A DNA stretch of 30,189 nt, from the IMG/VR virus record IMGVR_UViG_3300043425_000091, positions 1-30,189 of that record; one strand, written 5' to 3'. The stretch is from a virus. Positions 3,947-30,189 of the stretch are shown here, in pieces (within the stretch, counting starts at the first letter, position 1; every line of letters begins with the position of its first letter). The notes below the pieces were generated by a model. That model searched no databases and was not told the origin of the DNA. It worked only from the letters and a program-made list of their open reading frames with translations. Made by a program: the position numbers and the translations under genes.

Positions 3947-4360
3947 ATGGCAGTAAACAAAGTGGAGATCTATGTATCTCAAATTTTAGAAGACTTAGAC
4001 AATGGTCTAACATGGTTGAAAAGAGATGATCTAGGATATGGATCTATTCAAGAAAAGTATAATGCTAAAGATCAGCAGATTGCTATGATCCGTAAACATC
4101 CTGTATTAAAAGATGCAGAAACTACTGTAACAGTATTTACTGTAATTGATGACACTAAACAAGACTATAATGGAGGAACAACCACCGTATCCGCTACAGA
4201 CACCATACATGAGGAGTCTTTGGTCAGCGTACCTGTCACTGAAGGAGAGCACAACGGACCAGTTTCTGATGTCAGCTTACAAAGTATCAGTAGTGGATCT
4301 ACTACAAAAAGAAACGATGAAGTTACAGCAGACGACCTCTCAGCCTTCGCAAACTTATAA
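3947..4360 (+). CDS. Unknown 137-aa protein upstream of the AAA+ ATPase
   Basis: The N-terminal 70 residues look folded and helical (V-E-I-Y-V-S-Q-I-L-E-D-L-D-N-G-L-T-W-L-K). Residues from about 75 are rich in Thr, Ser, Val and acidic residues and are probably disordered, ending D-D-L-S-A-F-A-N-L. It lies 19 bases after ung and about 35 bases before the chosen start of the AAA+ ATPase, so it is probably in the same transcript and might be an adaptor for the AAA+/VWA pair. That link is positional only. Confidence 0.7.
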   Translation: MAVNKVEIYVSQILEDLDNGLTWLKRDDLGYGSIQEKYNAKDQQIAMIRKHPVLKDAETTVTVFTVIDDTKQDYNGGTTTVSATDTIHEESLVSVPVTEGEHNGPVSDVSLQSISSGSTTKRNDEVTADDLSAFANL

Positions 4361-4394
4361 AGATCTCACTAGGAGAATTAATGGTGGATATCAC

Positions 4395-5660
4395 ATGTCC
4401 GCACAAACAGTTACTGACTCAGGTGGTAAAATGACTTGGGTTGATACAACAATTGATAAAACAGTAGAACAAAAATTCAAAATTAACAGAAACATGTCTA
4501 AAGTAAAATCTATTACTAAAAGAACCACGCAAGAAGTGCGTCAGATTGAAACCTCTCTAATTAATAAAGAGGAAGTATTTAAAATGCTAGCTTTGGCTGA
4601 AGCAACAGGACTACCATGTCTATTAATCGGTCAGCCAGGTGTAGCAAAGACTAAAACTGTAGTTGATTATGCTAAGGCTTGGTTAAACAAAGATGGTAAG
4701 ATGACAGCAAAAGACTTTGCTGAGAAGATCTACATCTTAGAAACTGATGAAGGAACTAAAGCATCAGAAATCAAGGGTATGCCTGACTTAGGCAAGTTGT
4801 TTACAGATAATGAGTACTCTCTTAGCACACCTATTGCTGATGCAGAGATTGTAATCATCAACGAGGTAGATAAAGCTAGCTCAGCTATCCGTAATGCCAT
4901 GTTAGGTGTAATGAACGAGAAGTTCTTGTTCAATGGTAAGCACAAGATTCCATGTAAGTGGAAACTGTTTGTAGCTACATGTAATGAAATCCCTAAAGAA
5001 GAGAAAGGTTCTCCATTCTGGGACCGTTTTATGTTAAAACATACAGTTAACCGTGTATCTGCAGGTGAGATGGTTAAATACTACAACAAAGGTGGCCGTG
5101 ATTACCGTGAGAAGTTTAACATCGGTATCCCTAATAAGATGGAAATCAACGAGGTAGAAATTCCAGCAACTAAGCTAGAAAAATATCTAGAAGTTGGTTA
5201 CCAGCATAGCTCTGACCGTACACTTACTTTCGTACCTACACTTTCTAAAGCTGTATCTTATATCTGGGATATCTCAGTAGATAAGGCTCTTGTAAAAACA
5301 GCTCAGATCATGATTGATCAAACTGCAGGTTCTGAATTACAGAATAAACTAATGTCACCAGAGGTTAAAGCAGTAATGAGTAAGGTGGAGATGCTACACA
5401 GCTATCAAACCAATGCTCAGTTAGAGTTGGCTATTGCAGAGATTGAAGGATTGATCAATACATATGCGGGTAGAGGTATTATGGATGCAGGTCAAGTTGG
5501 AGAGATTGAGCTTTCTATGCAGTATATCTTACAGAATCATCCAGCACGTGTTGATAATGTAGACAACAATGAATTAGAAGCTATGATGTCTGAGATGGAA
5601 TCTGGTCCAATGGAAATGGAGCATGCTTCTATGCCAGTTGATGCTAGCAACCCTTTCTAG
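4395..5660 (+). CDS. MoxR/CobS-like AAA+ ATPase
   Basis: Counting from the ATG at 4395, Walker A G-Q-P-G-V-A-K-T is at residues 79-86 and Walker B V-I-I-N-E-V-D-K at 153-160 (Asn in place of the usual Asp before the catalytic Glu). Sensor 1 A-T-C-N lies around 194-197 and an arginine-finger-like F-W-D-R-F around 208-212. This fits the MoxR/CobS branch of AAA+ ATPases, which work with VWA-domain partners, and such a partner follows at 5797. The frame stays open upstream to 4146, but that part overlaps the previous gene in another frame and has an unnatural composition. A start at 4395 or 4317 is therefore more likely. The stop is preceded by a slippery-type heptamer. Confidence 0.9.
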   Translation: MSAQTVTDSGGKMTWVDTTIDKTVEQKFKINRNMSKVKSITKRTTQEVRQIETSLINKEEVFKMLALAEATGLPCLLIGQPGVAKTKTVVDYAKAWLNKDGKMTAKDFAEKIYILETDEGTKASEIKGMPDLGKLFTDNEYSLSTPIADAEIVIINEVDKASSAIRNAMLGVMNEKFLFNGKHKIPCKWKLFVATCNEIPKEEKGSPFWDRFMLKHTVNRVSAGEMVKYYNKGGRDYREKFNIGIPNKMEINEVEIPATKLEKYLEVGYQHSSDRTLTFVPTLSKAVSYIWDISVDKALVKTAQIMIDQTAGSELQNKLMSPEVKAVMSKVEMLHSYQTNAQLELAIAEIEGLINTYAGRGIMDAGQVGEIELSMQYILQNHPARVDNVDNNELEAMMSEMESGPMEMEHASMPVDASNPF

Positions 5661-5796: not shown

Positions 5797-7299
5797 ATGG
5801 CTAGTCCTAAACAATATAAGAATGTATACACCATTCTTGAGAAAGTAAAAAAAGGTGAGATACAGTCTTACTATAATGACGATGATGATGGATTGTTTGG
5901 TAAGATTAACTTTTATAAGAAAGCTGATCTTATTAAGCCATACATGCATTACATAGATGAGCGTAAAGTAGATACTGTAGTAGATACTTATATGCAAAAC
6001 CAAGATGCAATAGCAGATGCATACCGTAAGCTATCCTCTAGTACTAAGATCAACCCTGATCAAAAGCCAGACTATGATACTTTTACAAAGAAAGTACAAG
6101 AGAACTATAGAAAGTTTCCTAAGCACATGTCTAAAGACATTCATAAGCTTTTCTATCATAAGATGGAAAACTTAGAATTTGAAGACCGTGAAGATACTAA
6201 CTACACTAAGTTCAAAATGCTTGAGAGAGCTAACAACCCTGTTGCTAAGATTATGACTGAAGGTAGTAACCTTAAGTCTACGATCTTTGCTAGAAATATT
6301 ATGGCATATTTTGCTGTAAGATCTGCTATGATGGAGTATATAGATCCAGATACACAACAGCAGTTCATGAGTGGCATGAATGGTGAAGGTGACCCTGATG
6401 ATCTAGATCAAGCAATGGATAAGATGTTTAATGATAAACAATCTAAGAACATGCTTGACCAAGCTCTTAAAGATGCAACAGATACTTGTAAAGGTCTTGA
6501 TGAATCTGTAGACAAAGAAACCCAGGAAAAAATGTTTGATAACGTTAATAAAGACGGAGGAAGACAAGCTGGTAACCTTAGTCCAGATTATATCAGAAAG
6601 GTTGTACAGGAACTATCTAAGCTTAGTATGTCTTTAGGTAGTCTTAAAGATAAGATTAAGAAGCTTATGGATAAATCTGCTTCTTATTTTAGTGCTAAGA
6701 AAGAGACTGTATATGAAGACTTGTTTAACTCTGATAATCTAGGTGGTCTTAATGACTATATTGAGCTACATCCTAAACTACGTAAAATCTTTGCAGAAGA
6801 TATACTAGTCAAAGATGAAAAGTCAATTGGTAAGGTAGATATCTACATAGATATTTCAGGATCAATGTCTGATAACTGTGGCGTTAAAGATGCTCATGGA
6901 AATAGAATTAGTAAGCTAGACTTCTGTAAAGCATTTACAGTTAAGCTTAGTGAGATGGGTATGCTAAATGAGGTTTACTTATTTAATAACTCTGTTACTA
7001 AATTCAAGAACGATCCTATTTCTTTAGCTATGCTTGATACATCAGGTGGTACTACCACTGATAATGCTATTAGAAGCATTGAAAAAAACGGTGTTAACGC
7101 AATAGTTATTACAGATGCAGAAGATACTTGTAGAGAATACTCAGATAAAGCATTCTTTATAGGTGTTAAAGGATCTAGATTTAGTCACTTTAAAGATGAT
7201 ATTATCAAACAGTACTCAGATAGCAATCAAGTGGTTGTATTTGATGGTACAAAAGTGTACAATGTAGATCGTAAAGGTAACACTATAGGTTTATCTTAG
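5797..7299 (+). CDS. VWA-domain protein, partner of the AAA+ ATPase
   Basis: 500 residues. The N-terminal 340 are helical and charged, with a D-D-D-D-G run at 28-32 and an acidic linker at 195-215. The C-terminal VWA domain has the metal-ion-dependent adhesion site: D-I-S-G-S at 352-356, G-G-T-T-T-D at 417-422 and the strand V-I-T-D at 437-440. Known CobS/CobT and MoxR/VWA pairs use the ATPase to remodel a complex bound through the VWA metal site. The same division of work is inferred here. The target is unknown. Its end overlaps the convergent leftward gene by 17 bases. Confidence 0.9.
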   Translation: MASPKQYKNVYTILEKVKKGEIQSYYNDDDDGLFGKINFYKKADLIKPYMHYIDERKVDTVVDTYMQNQDAIADAYRKLSSSTKINPDQKPDYDTFTKKVQENYRKFPKHMSKDIHKLFYHKMENLEFEDREDTNYTKFKMLERANNPVAKIMTEGSNLKSTIFARNIMAYFAVRSAMMEYIDPDTQQQFMSGMNGEGDPDDLDQAMDKMFNDKQSKNMLDQALKDATDTCKGLDESVDKETQEKMFDNVNKDGGRQAGNLSPDYIRKVVQELSKLSMSLGSLKDKIKKLMDKSASYFSAKKETVYEDLFNSDNLGGLNDYIELHPKLRKIFAEDILVKDEKSIGKVDIYIDISGSMSDNCGVKDAHGNRISKLDFCKAFTVKLSEMGMLNEVYLFNNSVTKFKNDPISLAMLDTSGGTTTDNAIRSIEKNGVNAIVITDAEDTCREYSDKAFFIGVKGSRFSHFKDDIIKQYSDSNQVVVFDGTKVYNVDRKGNTIGLS

Positions 7300-8632
7300 A
7301 ACCTATAACACCAAAAAATAACATAGGGATATCAGGACTAGAACTTATGCTAGTCTTGAGCCCTATGTTTAATTTAAATCTTTTAGTAAAAGAGTAATCA
7401 ATCCCCATCCCGGAAAGTATACTGACATCAGTAGATTCAGTAAATGTCCCATCTTTAGTAAGATATACAAGGGGACTACCAGAAAAATATATATCTGGTG
7501 ATAAAGTTAATCTACGAGTAAGAGTAAAAGGCTTTGTGTAGAAGAGAAGAATAGAACTAGTGACACTCATTTGTTTCATAGGGTCACTAGAAGGAGTAGG
7601 TAAGTAATCTGCTCCAGCAAAAGAAACAGTCAGGTTAGCTCCTGTCACACCCCACTTACCCATAGGATAAATGTATGCGTAGGTACCAAAACCAAACACT
7701 GTACCAAAAGCATAGGCTGCAGTGAAACCAAAGTTAGATATACCTTGAAGCTTACCTGCATCAAAATGCATAGCTGTATATCTACCACTAAGAGCAAACT
7801 GTTGAAAGTTGCTCCACACCATGCCGGTTAGTCCCCAGGAAGATTGCCCAGTCATAGAAGACTGAGATATCCCACCGGTCATAATAATACTGAAACTATT
7901 ATCTAGACTTTGCCCACCAGTAAAGTCAGAGTTAAATAATATAGGATTTACTTTAGCAGGGCCTTTAGCTGCACTCTTAGATTTAGATCCACCCCCACTT
8001 GATTTAGATTCTGATTTAGACTCAGACTTAGATTCTGAGCTACTACTAGATGATTCTGAACTACTAGATTCAGAACTTGAAGAACTTTCCCCACTGCTAG
8101 AGCTGCTGCTACTAGATTCTGAGCTCGATCCTTGAGAATTGCTTGAACTACTAGCAGAGCTACTAGCTGAGGAAGAAGCTGAACTTGCTGCAGAAGAACT
8201 TGCAGATGATGCTGCACTACTAGAAGCAGAAGAAGCCGCAGAACTAGCGGCTTGAGATGCTGCACTGGAGGCAGCTGAAGCAGCGGCAGTAGAAGCAGCT
8301 GCTGATGCGGCAGCACTTACAGCAGCAGAAACAGCACCGGCTGTAATCTGAGTGCTAGTTGCTGAAGCTTGAGCCACAGAACAAGGAGATAGCTTTCTAT
8401 AGTCTTCATATACTTGATTAAGCCACGTGTTAAACGCACCACTCCTAACGTCAGCTGCAGTAAAGACTTTAGACTTATTATAAAAAACGATAACAGTACT
8501 ACCAGTAATAGGGATAACAAACGTAGAAACAGTCTTTGTACAAGGATCAACAAATGTCTGAACCAAAGTTTGAGAATAGCCATACAATGGTAGTATTACT
8601 ACAACAATAAGAGTGATAATATACTTTTTCAT
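7283..8632 (-). CDS. Secreted Ser/Ala-rich probable outer-membrane protein
   Basis: 449 residues. A signal peptide covers residues 1-21 (hydrophobic core I-I-T-L-I-V-V-V-I-L-P, end G-Y-S-Q). A small folded part spans about 22-84 with two cysteines (31 and 84). Residues about 85-227 are almost only Ala and Ser, turning into Ser/Glu and Ser/Lys repeats. The last 220 residues alternate aromatic and small residues in beta-strand pattern (F-G-F-G-T-Y-A-Y-I-Y, S-S-I-L-L-F-Y-T-K-P-F), ending in a strand like an outer-membrane barrel. This suggests a barrel anchored in the outer membrane carrying an exposed or periplasm-spanning flexible rod. It starts directly at the stop of the CsgG-like gene. No named family is recognised. 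Confidence 0.82.
   Translation of the reverse strand: MKKYIITLIVVVILPLYGYSQTLVQTFVDPCTKTVSTFVIPITGSTVIVFYNKSKVFTAADVRSGAFNTWLNQVYEDYRKLSPCSVAQASATSTQITAGAVSAAVSAAASAAASTAAASAASSAASQAASSAASSASSSAASSASSSAASSASSSASSSASSSSNSQGSSSESSSSSSSSGESSSSSESSSSESSSSSSESKSESKSESKSSGGGSKSKSAAKGPAKVNPILFNSDFTGGQSLDNSFSIIMTGGISQSSMTGQSSWGLTGMVWSNFQQFALSGRYTAMHFDAGKLQGISNFGFTAAYAFGTVFGFGTYAYIYPMGKWGVTGANLTVSFAGADYLPTPSSDPMKQMSVTSSILLFYTKPFTLTRRLTLSPDIYFSGSPLVYLTKDGTFTESTDVSILSGMGIDYSFTKRFKLNIGLKTSISSSPDIPMLFFGVIGSKINL
7284..7307. terminator. Inverted repeat at convergent gene ends, possible bidirectional terminator
   Basis: A perfect 8-base stem TATAGGTT / AACCTATA with an 8-base loop lies across the point where the rightward VWA gene and the leftward outer-membrane gene end. 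The symmetry fits termination in both directions, but neither side is followed by a long T run, so this is only a candidate. Confidence 0.4.
7969..8380 (-). repeat. Low-complexity Ser/Ala, Ser/Glu and Ser/Lys coding tract
   Basis: These bases encode roughly residues 85-222 of the 449-aa exported protein: alternating Ala/Ser runs, then Ser/Glu, then S-K-S-E-S-K repeats. The DNA uses many different Ser and Ala codons and is not a simple identical repeat, which implies selection on the amino acids. The regular composition also produces long spurious open frames in other registers. Confidence 0.85.
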
Positions 8633-22115: not shown

Positions 22116-22277
22116 ATGGAGGAGCCTGTTAAAACCTGTCCATCTAGTGTTGCAGATATGCAAGGACAACTAGATGAACTTATTAAGTTTCTAGAATATG
22201 AAGAAGCTATGAGTGTAGATCCTACAACTCAAAGACGTATTAGAGCTAAGCTTATAGAGCTTGGTGTATGGCAATAA
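22116..22277 (+). CDS. Small 53-aa protein
   Basis: ATG at 22116 to TAA at 22275-22277, overlapping the exonuclease start at 22268 by ten bases. Helical, with V-A-D-M-Q-G-Q-L-D-E-L-I-K-F-L-E followed by R-R-I-R-A-K-L-I-E-L-G-V-W. The shared overlap suggests coupled translation with the exonuclease. No function known. Confidence 0.68.
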   Translation: MEEPVKTCPSSVADMQGQLDELIKFLEYEEAMSVDPTTQRRIRAKLIELGVWQ

Positions 22278-23323
22278 CATTAAAACAAAAACACATGGAA
22301 TTAGAAGACATCATGCAGGAATCTGCAGAACTGTTAGAGAAAGACTTCTACGCTAAGAAGTTTTATTTTAGTTATAGTAGCCTTAACAAGCTAATGTGGA
22401 ACCCAGCTGTATTCTATCAGCTATATGTACTAGGAATGAAAGAAGAGCGTACTGATGCTCACTTAGTACAAGGTAAGATTATACATGCCCTTCTTTTAGA
22501 AGAAGATAAGTTTAACGATATGTTTGTAATCAGCCCGGCTAAGCTTCCAGGTGATTCAGTAAAGGTTGTTATAGATAGAGTGTATGCACATCATGTAGAG
22601 ATAGCTCAGAACGGTGACTTAAGAACTGAACTAAAAGACTTTGATCAAGCTATTCTAGATGTGATGGTAGATATGAACTATCACCAAAGCTTAAAGACAG
22701 ACCAGCAACGTATAGATAAAATTCTTGTACCAGAGTCTATCAGTTACTGGGACTTCTTAAAGACTAAAGGAGATAAGATTCTCATAGATCAGCAAACGTA
22801 TGACTTCTGTAAAAACGCAGTAGATCTAATTAAGACTAATAAGTCTGTATGTGATCTAATAGGGTGTAACCTAACTGAGTTTGACAATAAAGAAGTGTAT
22901 AACGAGATAGCTTTATCTGTAGAATATGGTGAAGCACCGTTTGGTCTTAAAGGAATTATAGATAATCTTGTGATAGATCATGATAAAAAAACTATATTTG
23001 TCAATGACATCAAGACTACAAGTAAAGACTTGAAGGACTTTAAAGAAACTGTTGAGTTTTATTCTTATTGGCTACAAGCAGTAATCTACTGTACTATGGT
23101 GGTCACTAGATACAAACAACTTATAGATTCTGGATACAGTCTTCAGTTTCATTTTGTAGTTATAGATAGATCTTTCCAAACTTATCCATTTTATGTAACA
23201 GAGTCTACTCTAAATGACTGGTTAACAAGAATGAATAAAGTTTTGGATGCTGCTAAGTGGCATTATGTTAATAAAAGATACGATCTACCTCATGAATATG
23301 CTACAGGTAGCGTAGTTTTGTAA
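22268..23323 (+). CDS. PD-(D/E)XK exonuclease (RecE/Cas4-like fold)
   Basis: 351 residues. The nuclease core is visible in order: S-Y-S-S-L-N-K at 35-41, Q-G-K-I-I-H-A-L-L with His73, G-I-I-D-N-L-V-I with Asp232, N-D-I-K-T-T with Asp247 and Lys249, and W-L-Q-A-V-I-Y with Gln270. This matches exodeoxyribonuclease VIII / RecB-type enzymes that resect DNA ends to produce single strands. With the Sak4-like ATPase and SSB-like protein it forms a plausible annealing-type recombination set. An internal ATG at 22295 is an alternative start. Confidence 0.9.
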   Translation: MAITLKQKHMELEDIMQESAELLEKDFYAKKFYFSYSSLNKLMWNPAVFYQLYVLGMKEERTDAHLVQGKIIHALLLEEDKFNDMFVISPAKLPGDSVKVVIDRVYAHHVEIAQNGDLRTELKDFDQAILDVMVDMNYHQSLKTDQQRIDKILVPESISYWDFLKTKGDKILIDQQTYDFCKNAVDLIKTNKSVCDLIGCNLTEFDNKEVYNEIALSVEYGEAPFGLKGIIDNLVIDHDKKTIFVNDIKTTSKDLKDFKETVEFYSYWLQAVIYCTMVVTRYKQLIDSGYSLQFHFVVIDRSFQTYPFYVTESTLNDWLTRMNKVLDAAKWHYVNKRYDLPHEYATGSVVL

Positions 23324-24415: not shown

Positions 24416-26356
24416 ATGGAAGAAAAAAAGCCTACCCACTGGGTAATGGACTATGAAACACTAGTCAATTGTTTTATAGGTGTGTTCCAGCATTACAAAG
24501 ATGAGAACATCAGGAAGACCTTTGTAATCTATAAGGATCGTAATGACCTACCAGAGTTTGTAAAGTTTTTAACTGAGTGTAAGGATAAGAACCAATGGCA
24601 TATTAGCTATAACGGTTTAGCTTTTGACGCTCAGATTAGTCAGCATATACTAGATAAGCAGCGTCAGCTACTTACTCTTAGTACTGAAGATGTTATCAAA
24701 GACATCTATGCTTTTGCACAGAAGACCATCTCTCTTAAAGATCAGAATACCTTTCTTGAGTACTCTCCCGCAAAGATAAAGATTAGACAGATAGATCTGT
24801 TTAAGATGAATCACTGGGATAACCGTGCCAAGATGAGTAGTCTTAAGTGGATACAGTTCTCTATGGACTGGCAGAACGTAGAAGAGATGCCTCATCATCA
24901 TACAGCTCCTGTAGAAAATGACGAGCAACTTAAAATGATCACCGAGTATTGTGTTAATGACGTACTTAGTACTAAGAAAGTCTTAGAGCATTCTAAAGAA
25001 CAAATAGTACTTAGACAAACTCTTACCAAAGAATATGGTATAGATCTCTATTCTGCTTCAGAGCCTAGAATATCTAAGGAGTTATTCTTACACTTTCTAT
25101 CACAGAAGCTTGGCTGGGATAAAGGAACAATCAAAACACTTAGAACCCATCATAGAGAGATCTATTTAGGTCAGTGTATACTTCCTTATATCAGTTTTAA
25201 GACTGAACATTTTCAAAGAATGTTTGACTACCTACGTACACAGGTAATTATATCCACTAAGAATGGGTTTAAGTACACTGTTAACTACAAAGGTATGAAA
25301 ACTGATTACGGTCTAGGTGGTATTCACGGGGCCCGTGAAGCCGGGGTATATGAAGCTAAGCATGGTTATACTATTATGACCAGTGACGTAACATCATTCT
25401 ATCCTAACTTAGCTATCCGTAATGGATTTCACCCAGCTCATCTTCCTAAAGAAGAGTTTTGTGAACTGTATGAATGGTTCTTTGAAGAGCGTAAGAAAAT
25501 TCCTAAGTCTGACCCTAAGAACTATGTGTATAAGATTATTCTTAACAGTACATACGGTTTAACAGGTGATGAGAACAGTTTCCTGTACGATCCAAGAATG
25601 ACTATGCAGATTACCATCAACGGGCAGCTTAGTCTAAGCATGCTTTATGAGATGATCTGTGAAGAGATTCCAGAAGCTGTGCCTCTTATGCAAAACACTG
25701 ACGGTCTAGAAACACTGATACCTAACTCTTATGTAGAGAAGTATCATGAAATCTGTGACAGATGGTGTCAAATGACTAAGCTTGAACTAGAACATGATGA
25801 GTATTCTAAAATGATCATCAGAGATGTAAACAACTACATAGCAGTATCTAAGTCAGGTAAGGTTAAATGCAAAGGTGCATTTGAGTGGGAGGATCTAGAC
25901 AAGAAGAAAGTAGCAGTGTTTCATAAGAACAAAAGCTTTCTTATTATACCAAAGGCTATCTATGCTTACTTTACAAAAGGTGTAAAGCCTGAAGACTTTC
26001 TAGCAGAAAATCAGAACATCTTTGATTACTGTGCAGGAGTTAAAGCTAAGAGTGGATGGTACTTTGAGTTAAGAAGCATTCAAGAAGGTGAGCTAGTATC
26101 TAAAAGACAACAAAAGATTGTCAGATACTTTGTTTCTAATAGAGGTGGTAAACTAGTTAAATGTCACACAGACGGAAGACTTATACAAGTAGAGTCTGGA
26201 CAGTGGCTACAAACCACCATAAACGAAATAGACGAAACAAGATCCTTTGATTCTTACGGGATTAACAAAAGCTACTATCTAGATCAGATCTATAAAGAGA
26301 TCCATCAGATTGAAAAAGAAAAGAGTTTATCATTTACACAACTATCATTATTTTAA
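24416..26356 (+). CDS. Family B DNA polymerase with 3'-5' exonuclease
   Basis: 646 residues. Exonuclease motifs: Exo I M-D-Y-E-T (Asp12, Glu14), Exo II N-G-L-A-F-D (66-71) and Exo III Y-C-V-N-D (178-182). A G-L-G-G-I-H-G-A link motif is at 299-306. Polymerase motif A S-D-V-T-S-F-Y-P (323-330), motif B K-I-I-L-N-S-T-Y-G (373-381) and motif C Q-N-T-D-G (426-430). Motifs A and B are only about 50 residues apart, so the fingers are compact, and motif C has N-T-D-G in place of D-T-D-S. Both traits are known in a phage PolB subgroup. It is the replicative polymerase of this phage. Confidence 0.94.
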   Translation: MEEKKPTHWVMDYETLVNCFIGVFQHYKDENIRKTFVIYKDRNDLPEFVKFLTECKDKNQWHISYNGLAFDAQISQHILDKQRQLLTLSTEDVIKDIYAFAQKTISLKDQNTFLEYSPAKIKIRQIDLFKMNHWDNRAKMSSLKWIQFSMDWQNVEEMPHHHTAPVENDEQLKMITEYCVNDVLSTKKVLEHSKEQIVLRQTLTKEYGIDLYSASEPRISKELFLHFLSQKLGWDKGTIKTLRTHHREIYLGQCILPYISFKTEHFQRMFDYLRTQVIISTKNGFKYTVNYKGMKTDYGLGGIHGAREAGVYEAKHGYTIMTSDVTSFYPNLAIRNGFHPAHLPKEEFCELYEWFFEERKKIPKSDPKNYVYKIILNSTYGLTGDENSFLYDPRMTMQITINGQLSLSMLYEMICEEIPEAVPLMQNTDGLETLIPNSYVEKYHEICDRWCQMTKLELEHDEYSKMIIRDVNNYIAVSKSGKVKCKGAFEWEDLDKKKVAVFHKNKSFLIIPKAIYAYFTKGVKPEDFLAENQNIFDYCAGVKAKSGWYFELRSIQEGELVSKRQQKIVRYFVSNRGGKLVKCHTDGRLIQVESGQWLQTTINEIDETRSFDSYGINKSYYLDQIYKEIHQIEKEKSLSFTQLSLF

Positions 26357-26366
26357 CAATACAATT

Positions 26367-27179
26367 ATGCCAGTAAAAACAGTTTTTGAAACAGAAAATT
26401 ATCTTAGAAGCTGCAGTCTTCCTAGTCACGGAAAGTCATATACAGTTATCCCACACGGAACAGTAATAGATGAAGCTAGAACCCAGTTGGCAGCAGCTGG
26501 TTTTACCATCAAGAAAGAATTATATAAAACTACACTCACAGGAGATGTAGCACAAGGTATGTATCACCTAGAATCTGGTAACGATCCAGAGATGGGACTT
26601 ATGTTTGTATGGTCAAACAGTTATAATAAAACCATGGCGTTTAAATGTGCAATTGGTGCACATGTATTTATCTGCTCCAACGGTGTAGTATCAGGAGATC
26701 TAGGTAATTACAGAAGAAGACACAGCGGTTCTGCTTTATCTGATGTAGCTACATCTATGCAAGAGCAGATAGCTAATGCTTCTAAGTACTATGATAACCT
26801 TATTCAAGACAAACAGATGCTAAAAGATATTCACCTTAGTCAAAGACAGAAGGGGACCATCTTAGGTAGACTGTTTGCTGAAGATGAGATTCTTACACTT
26901 ACTCAAGTAGGTATTGTTAAACGTGAACTAGATAAACCAACGTTCAATTATAGCAGTAATCCAGACAGTGCCTGGGATATGTACAACCATATCACTCTAG
27001 CTCTGAAAGATTCTCATCCTATGAAGTATTTATCTAATCACCAAAGAGTACACACCTTCTTTGTAAATGAGTTTGGTAATCTAGTATCAACGACAAATAC
27101 TGTTGTAGAACCAGTTGCAGTACAAGCTCCAGTTATGGAAGAAGAACTAGTAGCTGACTTTGGTGTAAACTTTCTTTAA
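26367..27179 (+). CDS. DUF932-like phage protein
   Basis: 270 residues from the ATG at 26367. The frame extends to 26310 but there overlaps the polymerase gene and adds an unlikely His/Asn/Tyr-rich start. Around residues 95-135 the order F-K-C-A-I-G-A-H-V-F-I-C-S-N-G-V-V-S-G-D followed by R-R-R-H-S-G-S-A matches the core of the DUF932 phage/plasmid family, where a C-S-N-G segment precedes a basic H-S/T-G motif. Biochemical role is not established to my knowledge. Location after the polymerase suggests DNA metabolism. Confidence 0.76.
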   Translation: MPVKTVFETENYLRSCSLPSHGKSYTVIPHGTVIDEARTQLAAAGFTIKKELYKTTLTGDVAQGMYHLESGNDPEMGLMFVWSNSYNKTMAFKCAIGAHVFICSNGVVSGDLGNYRRRHSGSALSDVATSMQEQIANASKYYDNLIQDKQMLKDIHLSQRQKGTILGRLFAEDEILTLTQVGIVKRELDKPTFNYSSNPDSAWDMYNHITLALKDSHPMKYLSNHQRVHTFFVNEFGNLVSTTNTVVEPVAVQAPVMEEELVADFGVNFL

Positions 27180-27576: not shown

Positions 27577-28320
27577 ATGATTATAGGCGTTTCAGGGTAC
27601 AGTGGATCAGGAAAAGACCTGGTCGGTACAATTATACAATACTTAGTTGCTAATAACCAAAATGGTTACAATAACAGTAGTAGTACTTTAAATGAAATTA
27701 TAAAGTCTCAAGAAGAGCATGATTGGTGGTTAGAAGAACAATCTGGTTGGGAAATAAAAAAATGGGCAGGTAAATTAAAGACCATAGCTTCCATACTTAC
27801 AGGTATTCCTGTAGAAAACTTTGAAGATCAAGAGTTTAAAAAGACATTACTTGGTCCAGAGTGGGGCACAGTTAAAGATATTCCTTTAAATACTGTACCA
27901 GTATTTGCAGATATACAGTTTAACAACTTAATATCAGTAAGAGACTTTTTACAAAGGTTGGGTACAGATGCTATCAGAGATGGTTTACATGAGAACACAT
28001 GGGTAAATGCTTTAATGGCTGATTATATACCTGAAGATGTACAATGGTCTGATGGCCCTATTGGTGGATATAAATCTGGTGAAAAATTACCTAACTGGAT
28101 TATTACAGATACACGTTTTTCTAATGAAGCAGAAGCTATTAAAAAAGCTGATGGTATTATCATACGTGTAGAAAGACCTGGGGTAAAACCTATTAATCCA
28201 CACCCTTCTGAAACTGGTTTAGATAAATGGAACTTTGATCATGTAATAAATAATGATGGATCTCCTACAGACTTAGCTAAAAAAATTAAGAAAGTCTTAG
28301 AAGAAAATAAAATTATTTAG
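27577..28320 (+). CDS. Deoxynucleoside monophosphate kinase
   Basis: 247 residues. The P-loop G-Y-S-G-S-G-K-D-L is at 6-14, followed at about 127-135 by R-D-F-L-Q-R-L-G-T-D-A, a motif typical of phage dNMP kinases (LLQ..GT). Next come W-I-I-T-D-T-R-F-S-N-E-A (about 174-185) and R-V-E-R-P-G, and the C-terminus H-P-S-E-T-G-L is also characteristic. The enzyme phosphorylates dNMPs to dNDPs to supply precursors for phage replication. It lies three bases before the radical-SAM-like gene. Confidence 0.88.
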   Translation: MIIGVSGYSGSGKDLVGTIIQYLVANNQNGYNNSSSTLNEIIKSQEEHDWWLEEQSGWEIKKWAGKLKTIASILTGIPVENFEDQEFKKTLLGPEWGTVKDIPLNTVPVFADIQFNNLISVRDFLQRLGTDAIRDGLHENTWVNALMADYIPEDVQWSDGPIGGYKSGEKLPNWIITDTRFSNEAEAIKKADGIIIRVERPGVKPINPHPSETGLDKWNFDHVINNDGSPTDLAKKIKKVLEENKII

Positions 28321-28323
28321 TTT

Positions 28324-29178
28324 ATGGAGATCATATATCAGAAAACAAAAACTCTAATCACCCGGGATAATGGAAGAAGCTCAGACGCTATTAGTCCGAA
28401 CTTCATCTACGGGTGTTTAGGTGGTTGTATGAGCTCATACTGTTATGTAGGCAGATACAATCATGATAAGGTGTATGTTAACCAGAATGTAGTAGATATC
28501 TTTGACTCTATTAGTGGCTGGGTAGATAACAAAGTATGGCCTAAGATTATTAATCAGGTTGATCCAGTATTCTATACAGTAGATATTGGGTGCAGCACTG
28601 ATGTAGCTTTAATGAGTAAACATTATAACTGGCAGCATGTCTTTGACTACTTTAGTTTTGCTAAAGCTAGAGCTAAGTCTACCTTTGCTACTAAGTATCC
28701 AACAATGTTTGTAGATAAAGACTACGATCTAGTTAGAGCTAAACACCGTATCCGGGTAAGTTTGATGCCTCAGATGTACTCTGATGTACTTGAACCACAC
28801 ACAGATACTATAGAAGAACGTATAGCTAGCATTCCTAAGTTACAAGAGAAGATGGAAGTTCACATTAACTTCAGTCCTATTATATATACGGAAGGTTGGC
28901 TAGATGAGTACCGTAAGTTATTTGAGCAACTTAAAGCTGCTAATATAGATGTTAAGTGTGAGTGTATATTCCTTACACATAACTTACACCAGCATCAGCG
29001 TAACAGTCCGGAAGTACAAGGTCTCTTATGGCGTCCTGATATACAAGAAGCCAAAGATTCTCAGTATGCACCAGATAATATACGCTACCAGTGGCTGCTT
29101 AAAAAACAAATGGTTAGTGACTTTACTGGACTCTATGCTGAGTATTTTGATCCAACTAACATTAGATATATTTTTTAA
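28324..29178 (+). CDS. Radical-SAM-like protein, spore-photoproduct-lyase type
   Basis: 284 residues. A cysteine cluster near the N-terminus, Y-G-C-L-G-G-C-M-S-S-Y-C-Y-V at 29-42, places Cys31, Cys35 and Cys40 where a [4Fe-4S] cluster site would be. The spacing is C-x3-C-x4-C instead of the normal C-x3-C-x2-C. Later segments (D-I-G-C-S-T-D-V-A-L, V-H-I-N-F-S-P-I-I-Y-T-E-G-W-L) fit the barrel of spore photoproduct lyase-like enzymes. A DNA-repair or base-modifying role is possible. Activity is uncertain because of the altered cluster motif. Confidence 0.68.
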   Translation: MEIIYQKTKTLITRDNGRSSDAISPNFIYGCLGGCMSSYCYVGRYNHDKVYVNQNVVDIFDSISGWVDNKVWPKIINQVDPVFYTVDIGCSTDVALMSKHYNWQHVFDYFSFAKARAKSTFATKYPTMFVDKDYDLVRAKHRIRVSLMPQMYSDVLEPHTDTIEERIASIPKLQEKMEVHINFSPIIYTEGWLDEYRKLFEQLKAANIDVKCECIFLTHNLHQHQRNSPEVQGLLWRPDIQEAKDSQYAPDNIRYQWLLKKQMVSDFTGLYAEYFDPTNIRYIF

Positions 29179-29355: not shown

Positions 29356-29583
29356 ATGGACAGACAGACACCTGTAGAAAGATTAGCAGACTATGTACGG
29401 TCAAGGTATGACACCACTGAAGTATTTAACAACCTGGTAACCAATTTATTACACAGAGAAATGCTACAGCGTGTAGAAGACTATAATGCTGGACATGCTG
29501 ATGGTCTATGCAATCATATTAATGATGCTAATAATTATATAAACGAACAAAACTATTTAAAAGATGAAGATACTACACATTAG
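29356..29583 (+). CDS. Unknown 75-aa protein
   Basis: A helical, charged small protein (P-V-E-R-L-A-D-Y-V-R-S-R-Y, then L-L-H-R-E-M-L-Q-R-V-E-D-Y-N) with several His and Asn residues toward the end. Its last 20 bases overlap the start of the phosphoesterase gene, so translation is probably coupled. No function known. Confidence 0.7.
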   Translation: MDRQTPVERLADYVRSRYDTTEVFNNLVTNLLHREMLQRVEDYNAGHADGLCNHINDANNYINEQNYLKDEDTTH

Positions 29584-30189
29584 TGATACCCATGGATTCC
29601 ACTACATGTACCCTGATAGTAACTTTGAAGGCATAGACGTAGTGATTCATAGCGGTGACTGCTCTAATTATAGAGATGCTTATAGAAATCATGCTGAAGT
29701 ACTTGACTTTCTAGAGTGGTATAAGAACGTACCAGTAAAATATAAGATCTATGTAGCTGGTAATCATGATAGTTCTATAGAAAGACGCATGGTTAACCCT
29801 GGAGACTTTGCTGCAGCTGGTATTATCTATCTAGAAAATGAGGCTACTACTATAGAAGGTATTAAATTCTACGGTAGTCCTATTACACCTACGTTTGGTG
29901 ACTGGTCTTTTATGAAAGCTAGGGCTAAAACCCACGCTGTATGGGAAGCTATTCCTGATGACACAGATGTTCTTATTGTCCACGGTCCCCCAAAGGGTGT
30001 AAGAGATCTAAGCTTTGATAGAGATGGTAACCTTGAGATGTGTGGTGACTTATCCCTTACAAAGAGATGTTGGGCTCTAAAAGACACACTAAAGTTAGTT
30101 TGTTTTGGCCATATCCATAATATGGATGGGGTAGACACTAACCAAGGCGTCTCCACTTACTCACGTACAAAAACTGTATTTTCTAATGC
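29564..30189 (+). CDS. Calcineurin-like metallophosphoesterase (3' truncated)
   Basis: The frame runs from ATG at 29564 past the window end, giving 208 complete codons. All metal-binding motifs are present: S-D-T-H-G at 7-11, H-S-G-D-C at 34-38, A-G-N-H-D at 70-74, V-H-G-P-P around 145-149 and F-G-H-I-H-N at about 185-190. This is the two-metal phosphoesterase fold used by nucleases and phosphatases acting on nucleotides or DNA. A phage member beside DNA-repair genes may be a nuclease or polynucleotide phosphatase, but the substrate cannot be read from the sequence. Confidence 0.9.
   Translation, partial: MKILHISDTHGFHYMYPDSNFEGIDVVIHSGDCSNYRDAYRNHAEVLDFLEWYKNVPVKYKIYVAGNHDSSIERRMVNPGDFAAAGIIYLENEATTIEGIKFYGSPITPTFGDWSFMKARAKTHAVWEAIPDDTDVLIVHGPPKGVRDLSFDRDGNLEMCGDLSLTKRCWALKDTLKLVCFGHIHNMDGVDTNQGVSTYSRTKTVFSN

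Follow-up and report, generated by a model that had tools for sequence, protein, structure and literature searches.

The open reading frame at positions 28324–29178 of the window (the whole 30,189-nucleotide stretch of viral DNA analysed here) encodes a short radical-SAM protein resembling spore photoproduct lyase (SPL), in which the cluster cysteines are spaced C-x3-C-x4-C. As judged from the alignments described below, this x4 spacing is a clade-wide SPL variant of uncultivated phages and a few bacteria. In our view the protein is probably a phage-type short SPL that would undo a DNA thymine photoproduct in the dark, its activity and substrate both being predicted from sequence comparison and a structural model.

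The reading frame has an ATG start, codes for 284 amino acids and contains no internal stops. The motif reads Y-G-C31-L-G-G-C35-M-S-S-Y39-C40-Y41, so the protein lacks the canonical radical-SAM motif CX3CX2C (x2 below) and has CX3CX4C instead. A preliminary description of this DNA had taken GCLGGCMSSYC to be two residues longer than normal, and both the reading frame and the alignment agree. The third cluster cysteine is flanked by two tyrosines. The features of the gene are as follows.

28324..29178, plus strand: SPL-like radical-SAM protein, short form (PF20903, TIGR03886 and fold match)
28414..28443, plus strand: cluster motif C31-x3-C35-x4-C40, present in all 76 alignable viral rows of window type
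28429..28434, plus strand: two inserted residues, M36-S37, absent from all 98 x2 rows and from SplB (site set by the alignment; exact position inside C35–Y39 arbitrary)
28438..28446, plus strand: Y39-C40-Y41, the tyrosines aligned to SPL Y97/Y99 (Bacillus subtilis numbering)
28591..28593, plus strand: C90, aligned to the hydrogen-donor cysteine of SPL (B. subtilis C141)

The SPL-like relationship suggested in the preliminary description is upheld by the profile score, the predicted fold and the relay residues. Against the Pfam SPL model PF20903 the protein scores 47.9 bits over residues 26–225 (gathering cut-off 27). The best NCBIfam model is TIGR03886 (lyase_spl_fam), with 200.9 bits over profile positions 61–346 and a curated cut-off of 437.55, while TIGR04070 (photo_TT_lyase, SplB) gives 41.2 bits against a cut-off of 400; because both scores are below the cut-offs, we do not place the protein in either family. 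The short relatives L109, L120, L088, L192 and L090 likewise fall below the TIGR03886 cut-off, and relative to the cellular form the window protein is shorter by about 60 residues at its N-terminus. It is 33–37% identical over nearly the full length to three cellular members of TIGR03886, a family found in many phyla, but the cellular proteins that pass the cut-off (L111 and L173) are x2 and full length.

An AlphaFold2 model of the window protein, built from a 52-row alignment and containing neither cluster nor SAM, has a pLDDT of 93.6 and a pTM of 0.91. Its best fold match is the SPL crystal structure 4fhf (Z 28.3 over 268 residues, 2.1 Å, chain residues 61–341; TM to SPL 0.81), and the next fold family is RlmN, with a Z of 14.3. 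The preliminary description had named a fold prediction other than a radical-SAM barrel as evidence against its assignment; the barrel predicted is that of SPL. Compared with Geobacillus SplB (TIGR04070; PDB entries 4fhc, 4fhe, 4fhf, 4fhg, 4k9r and 4rh0), the protein has a matching predicted fold (Z about 28) and retains both YCY tyrosines as well as the hydrogen-donor cysteine, but it is only 19% identical in the structural alignment, lacks the N-terminal residues noted above and has CX3CX4C where SplB has CX3CX2C. In a viral fold library the best TM was 0.62 (by query length), with nothing scoring as SPL-like.

The x4 model has a short helix at residues 34–37, whereas a model of the viral x2 protein L088 (43-row alignment, pLDDT 94.3, no cluster) has no helix between the cysteines. 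Around the motif, the x4 model is predicted with slightly less confidence (pLDDT blocks of 86 and 86) than that of L088 (89 and 91). The x4 and x2 relatives also differ at many otherwise fixed sites, for example 26, 29, 46, 53 and 91. Cys214 is a cysteine in 99% of x4 rows and in 7 of 98 x2 rows. We considered it as an extra cluster ligand and rejected this, since the position is otherwise mostly valine or isoleucine and is located in a strand; we take it as a probable packing residue.

An alignment of phage homologues, proposed in the preliminary description as a check on the constancy of the spacing, supports it throughout. The first viral scan gave x4 in 39 of 39 loci. The alignment-based scans took the best 80 of 574 viral and the best 80 of 546 bacterial or archaeal confirmed relatives, and in their joint alignment all 76 alignable window-type viral rows, the window included, are x4, as are five cellular rows. 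The same alignment holds 98 TIGR03886-like relatives (21 viral and 77 cellular, the latter including three from plasmids) along with a single row for SplB, all x2. The window-type viral loci (type A) number 80, and four of them stand outside the joint alignment: L076 is short, being ended by a contig edge, and is x4; L085 is split by an intein and its flanking sequence gives x4; L083 and L084 have a reading frame broken within the motif. A broken copy from Rickettsia tamurae (L150, 5995–6853), also outside the joint alignment, carries an x4 motif.

At the DNA level, a pattern built on the same anchor residues found no viral stretches with x2 spacing and at least 119 with x4. This control covers only relatives with the YGC-x-GGC...YCY anchors; where the anchors differ, x2 does occur. 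Among 115 new x4 loci that were read, not all of them independent because some lie on contigs already in the set, 99 pass simple SPL checks and 16 do not, about half of these being incomplete; by eye the 16 belong to the same family. A second viral x4 branch (type B) has mostly the motif GCFGGCVDTYCYM and comprises 63 near-full proteins. The other viral SPL-like proteins (L086–L106 and L302–L380) share the short form and the relay cysteine with the window protein but differ in spacing, with x2 in 21 of 21 and in 77 of the 79 further relatives. The remaining two, L327 and L368, have C-x4-C-x2-C, so that the first gap is variable too. Because the x4 spacing is conserved, chance is ruled out.

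Trees were calculated from chosen rows with the whole motif removed, using 48 rows without type B and 50 with type B added. The x4 rows group on one branch in both (support 99/97 and 100/96, respectively), and the AU test does not reject x4 as one clade (p-AU 0.366 and 0.411). The sole x2 row inside this branch is L090, which has a long branch and is unsurely placed. Relatives with normal spacing, which the preliminary description thought would point to a local insertion, do exist; however, with the exception of L090 they fall outside the x4 clade, so the insertion is a trait of the clade and not a local one. One insertion event would be the simplest reading of these trees, although it is not proven.

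Bacterial x4 copies are sporadic (L107, L108, L109, L110, L120 and L387), with Cesiribacter, Paracaedibacteraceae and a Burkholderiales MAG among the carriers. L109 adjoins a SAM synthetase gene, L110 is near an Exo_endo_phos gene and L120 is near an RNase_T exonuclease gene. Four ORFs flanking cellular x4 genes were checked in Pfam, of which three matched and one did not. By eye, and short of proof, the cellular x4 genes look chromosomal rather than prophage-derived. In the order of Odyssella, two of 42 genomes match, both already in the set. Of 291 genomes sampled from the order that contains Cesiribacter, 62 give a match of whatever strength, and the 20 loci read there comprise two with x4 (one from the query's own genome) and 18 with x2. 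The first scan of bacterial and archaeal contigs, with the window protein as the sole query, gave no relative.

The radical relay of B. subtilis SPL is described, in the excerpted literature, as consisting of Cys141, Tyr99 and Tyr97, which align with C90, Y41 and Y39 of the window protein. The excerpts also describe, for the B. subtilis C141A variant with dithionite, the abortive product TpT-SO2-. All 76 viral x4, all five cellular x4 and all 21 viral x2 rows retain C90, as do the 79 further viral relatives; Y39 and Y41 are kept in all 76 viral x4 rows. The 77 cellular x2 rows have cysteine at the donor position in 42 and glutamate in 35 (the glutamate-type loci being L041–L043 and 32 of L147–L186). 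The wider family is therefore not uniform in chemistry, and the phage protein keeps a donor that is absent from nearly half of these cellular rows. The preliminary description had left the choice between an unusual cluster site and a repurposed fold. Since the three cluster cysteines, the YCY tyrosines and the SPL hydrogen-donor cysteine are all kept, the evidence favours an unusual cluster site.

Coding changes between relatives point to strong purifying selection on the phage gene. Between the window and L002 (dS 0.52, dN 0.028) the changes are mostly synonymous, and dN/dS is about 0.05 for this pair, 0.03 for window/L021, 0.06 for L003/L006 and 0.17 for L009/L012. In L085 (6925–8747) a split intein lies exactly between Y39 and C40, the third cluster cysteine; its halves match complementary parts of the Pfam model Intein_splicing, each with a score short of the gathering threshold. 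Inteins tend to insert at conserved active sites, and the position here fits one. The N-terminal half ends in a stop and the C-terminal half is a separate ORF; between them lies an antisense ORF (7070–7960, minus strand) with HNH-like residues by eye, for which Pfam gives only a sub-cut-off match to DUF968. L083 (3976–4819) and L084 (8001–8844) share an identical frame break in the cluster motif, at a UGA. Beyond the break, about 20 synonymous and seven non-synonymous changes separate the two, as if still translated; recoding, recent decay or some other event may account for this.

The gene is found in the following setting.

22268..23323, plus strand: PD-(D/E)XK nuclease (PF12705, E 5.7e-11)
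24416..26356, plus strand: family-B DNA polymerase (phrog_1252, E 2.2e-141)
26310..27179, plus strand: DUF932 protein (PF06067, E 9.5e-11, family search from 26367)
27577..28320, plus strand: deoxynucleoside monophosphate (dNMP) kinase, directly upstream of the SPL-like gene (phrog_139, E 7.7e-43)
29564..30189, plus strand: calcineurin-like phosphoesterase whose frame runs off the window edge (PF00149, E 1.1e-13)

The phrog_139 and PF00149 matches confirm the kinase and phosphoesterase that had been named as neighbours; a 75-residue ORF also lies in the interval between them. At the 80 type-A loci, many of which are short contigs, the kinase is found in 52, the polymerase in 54, the nuclease in 49 and the DUF932 protein in 38. 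The 63 type-B loci, where neighbours were named by resemblance to window genes, have a polymerase-like ORF upstream in 33, a nuclease-like ORF upstream in 21 and a DUF932-like ORF directly downstream in 36. In type A and type B alike, the SPL gene thus belongs to a replication module with a family-B polymerase. The preliminary description read its surroundings as suggesting DNA repair or nucleotide modification: the DNA-metabolism setting stands, but no evidence was found for nucleotide modification. UDG is present in 13 of 26 long phage records; photolyase occurs in none of the 26, so no partner repair system was seen. In the excerpts of the literature on cellular splB, LexA regulation is predicted in alpha- and beta-Proteobacteria and SplB-like genes are located in SOS-type operons.

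Elsewhere in the window, 4146–5660 encodes a MoxR-type AAA ATPase (PF20030), followed by a 500-residue protein (5797–7299) that matches no PHROG or phage record, and a 449-residue protein on the minus strand (7283–8632) has a long Ser/Ala-rich low-complexity stretch. Megablast of window positions 1–25000 matched no phage record. Searches of 50,697 phage records, in which records very near the window are perhaps absent, with type A, type B and viral x2 proteins gave no match at E 1e-5; relaxing the threshold to E 10 gave three weak matches, each of them partial (coverage 18–22%).

Radical-SAM enzymes with non-canonical spacings are known. The excerpt of PMC4389238 lists QueE (CX14CX2C), HmdB (CX5CX2C), ThiC (CX2CX4C) and also PhnJ; these show that spacing can change, and some of the loops, such as that of QueE, are longer and yet bind the cluster. 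QueE thus offers a precedent, its cluster site being canonical apart from the extended loop. QueE and HmdB differ from the window protein in that the first gap is lengthened, ThiC has its motif near the C-terminus, and none of the set in that excerpt is CX3CX4C. The papers that a literature search turned up for CX3CX4C concern, by title, ferredoxins and metalloproteinase inhibitors.

Under the favoured SPL reading, C31, C35 and C40 would bind a [4Fe–4S] cluster, the two extra residues forming a longer loop between the second and third cysteines and leaving the YCY triplet unchanged. The cluster would cleave SAM to give a 5'-deoxyadenosyl radical, which would take a hydrogen from a thymine photolesion, presumably spore photoproduct (SP; 5-thyminyl-5,6-dihydrothymine) or a closely related product. 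After that the lesion would break apart, with C90 donating a hydrogen to the thymine radical and Y41 and Y39 assisting radical return. Presumably made alongside the replication genes, the enzyme would allow the phage to reverse photodamage in DNA without light. The fold, the relay residues, purifying selection, the replication-gene setting, the intein site in L085 and the QueE precedent all support this reading; counted against it are the two NCBIfam cut-offs that the protein falls below, glutamate donors in 35 of the 77 cellular x2 rows and the 26 phage records devoid of photolyase.

Alternatively, the fold and relay of SPL could have been redirected to a different thymine derivative, be it a nucleotide, a modified base or some other dimer; the lengthened cluster loop and the lack of the N-terminus would then reflect a new substrate. 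The many otherwise fixed sites that separate the x4 clade from x2 relatives, the absent N-terminal residues and the nearby dNMP kinase speak for such an enzyme, but every SPL relay residue is kept and none of the window genes searched was recognisable as a base-modification gene. Moreover, viral x2 relatives also lack the N-terminus, so its loss is not tied to x4. On balance we regard redirection as rather unlikely. It is less plausible still, and in our judgement improbable, that the protein is degenerate or structural, with a longer motif that holds no working radical-SAM cluster. The departure from CX3CX2C and the frame break in L083 and L084 would fit decay, but the three cysteines and YCY are present in 76 of 76 rows, selection is strongly purifying, synonymous changes predominate even past that break, and loop-length variants exist in working enzymes (excerpt of PMC4389238). 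A local insertion or sequencing error in the window contig, which has the odd spacing itself in its favour and nothing more, can be dismissed as next to impossible, given x4 in many contigs and bacterial genomes and pattern counts of 0 for x2 against at least 119 for x4.

SP is favoured in dehydrated A-form DNA, according to the excerpt of PMC3949526. Within the literature searched, papers naming spore photoproduct lyase together with phage, judged mostly by title, gave no report of a phage-borne SPL, and none on SP in phage heads was found by title. We suggest tentatively that large uncultivated phages, over a wide range, may carry a dark-acting lyase with a clade-specific loop against SP formed under UV in capsids; SP is proposed there because packed DNA is tight and poorly hydrated.

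SPL, which mends UV damage to DNA independently of light, is known chiefly as a repair enzyme of bacterial endospores. If the suggestion is true, SP chemistry would be a general virion problem that extends beyond spores. Purifying selection on an SPL family of phages would imply that a dithymine lesion matters in virions or in phage replication. For the family itself, relatives that pass TIGR03886 are now seen with both cysteine and glutamate at the donor position (L111 and L173 between them). The CX3CX4C clade offers a natural test of lengthening the loop between the second and third cluster cysteines, for which x2 proteins sharing its fold and relay are available for comparison.
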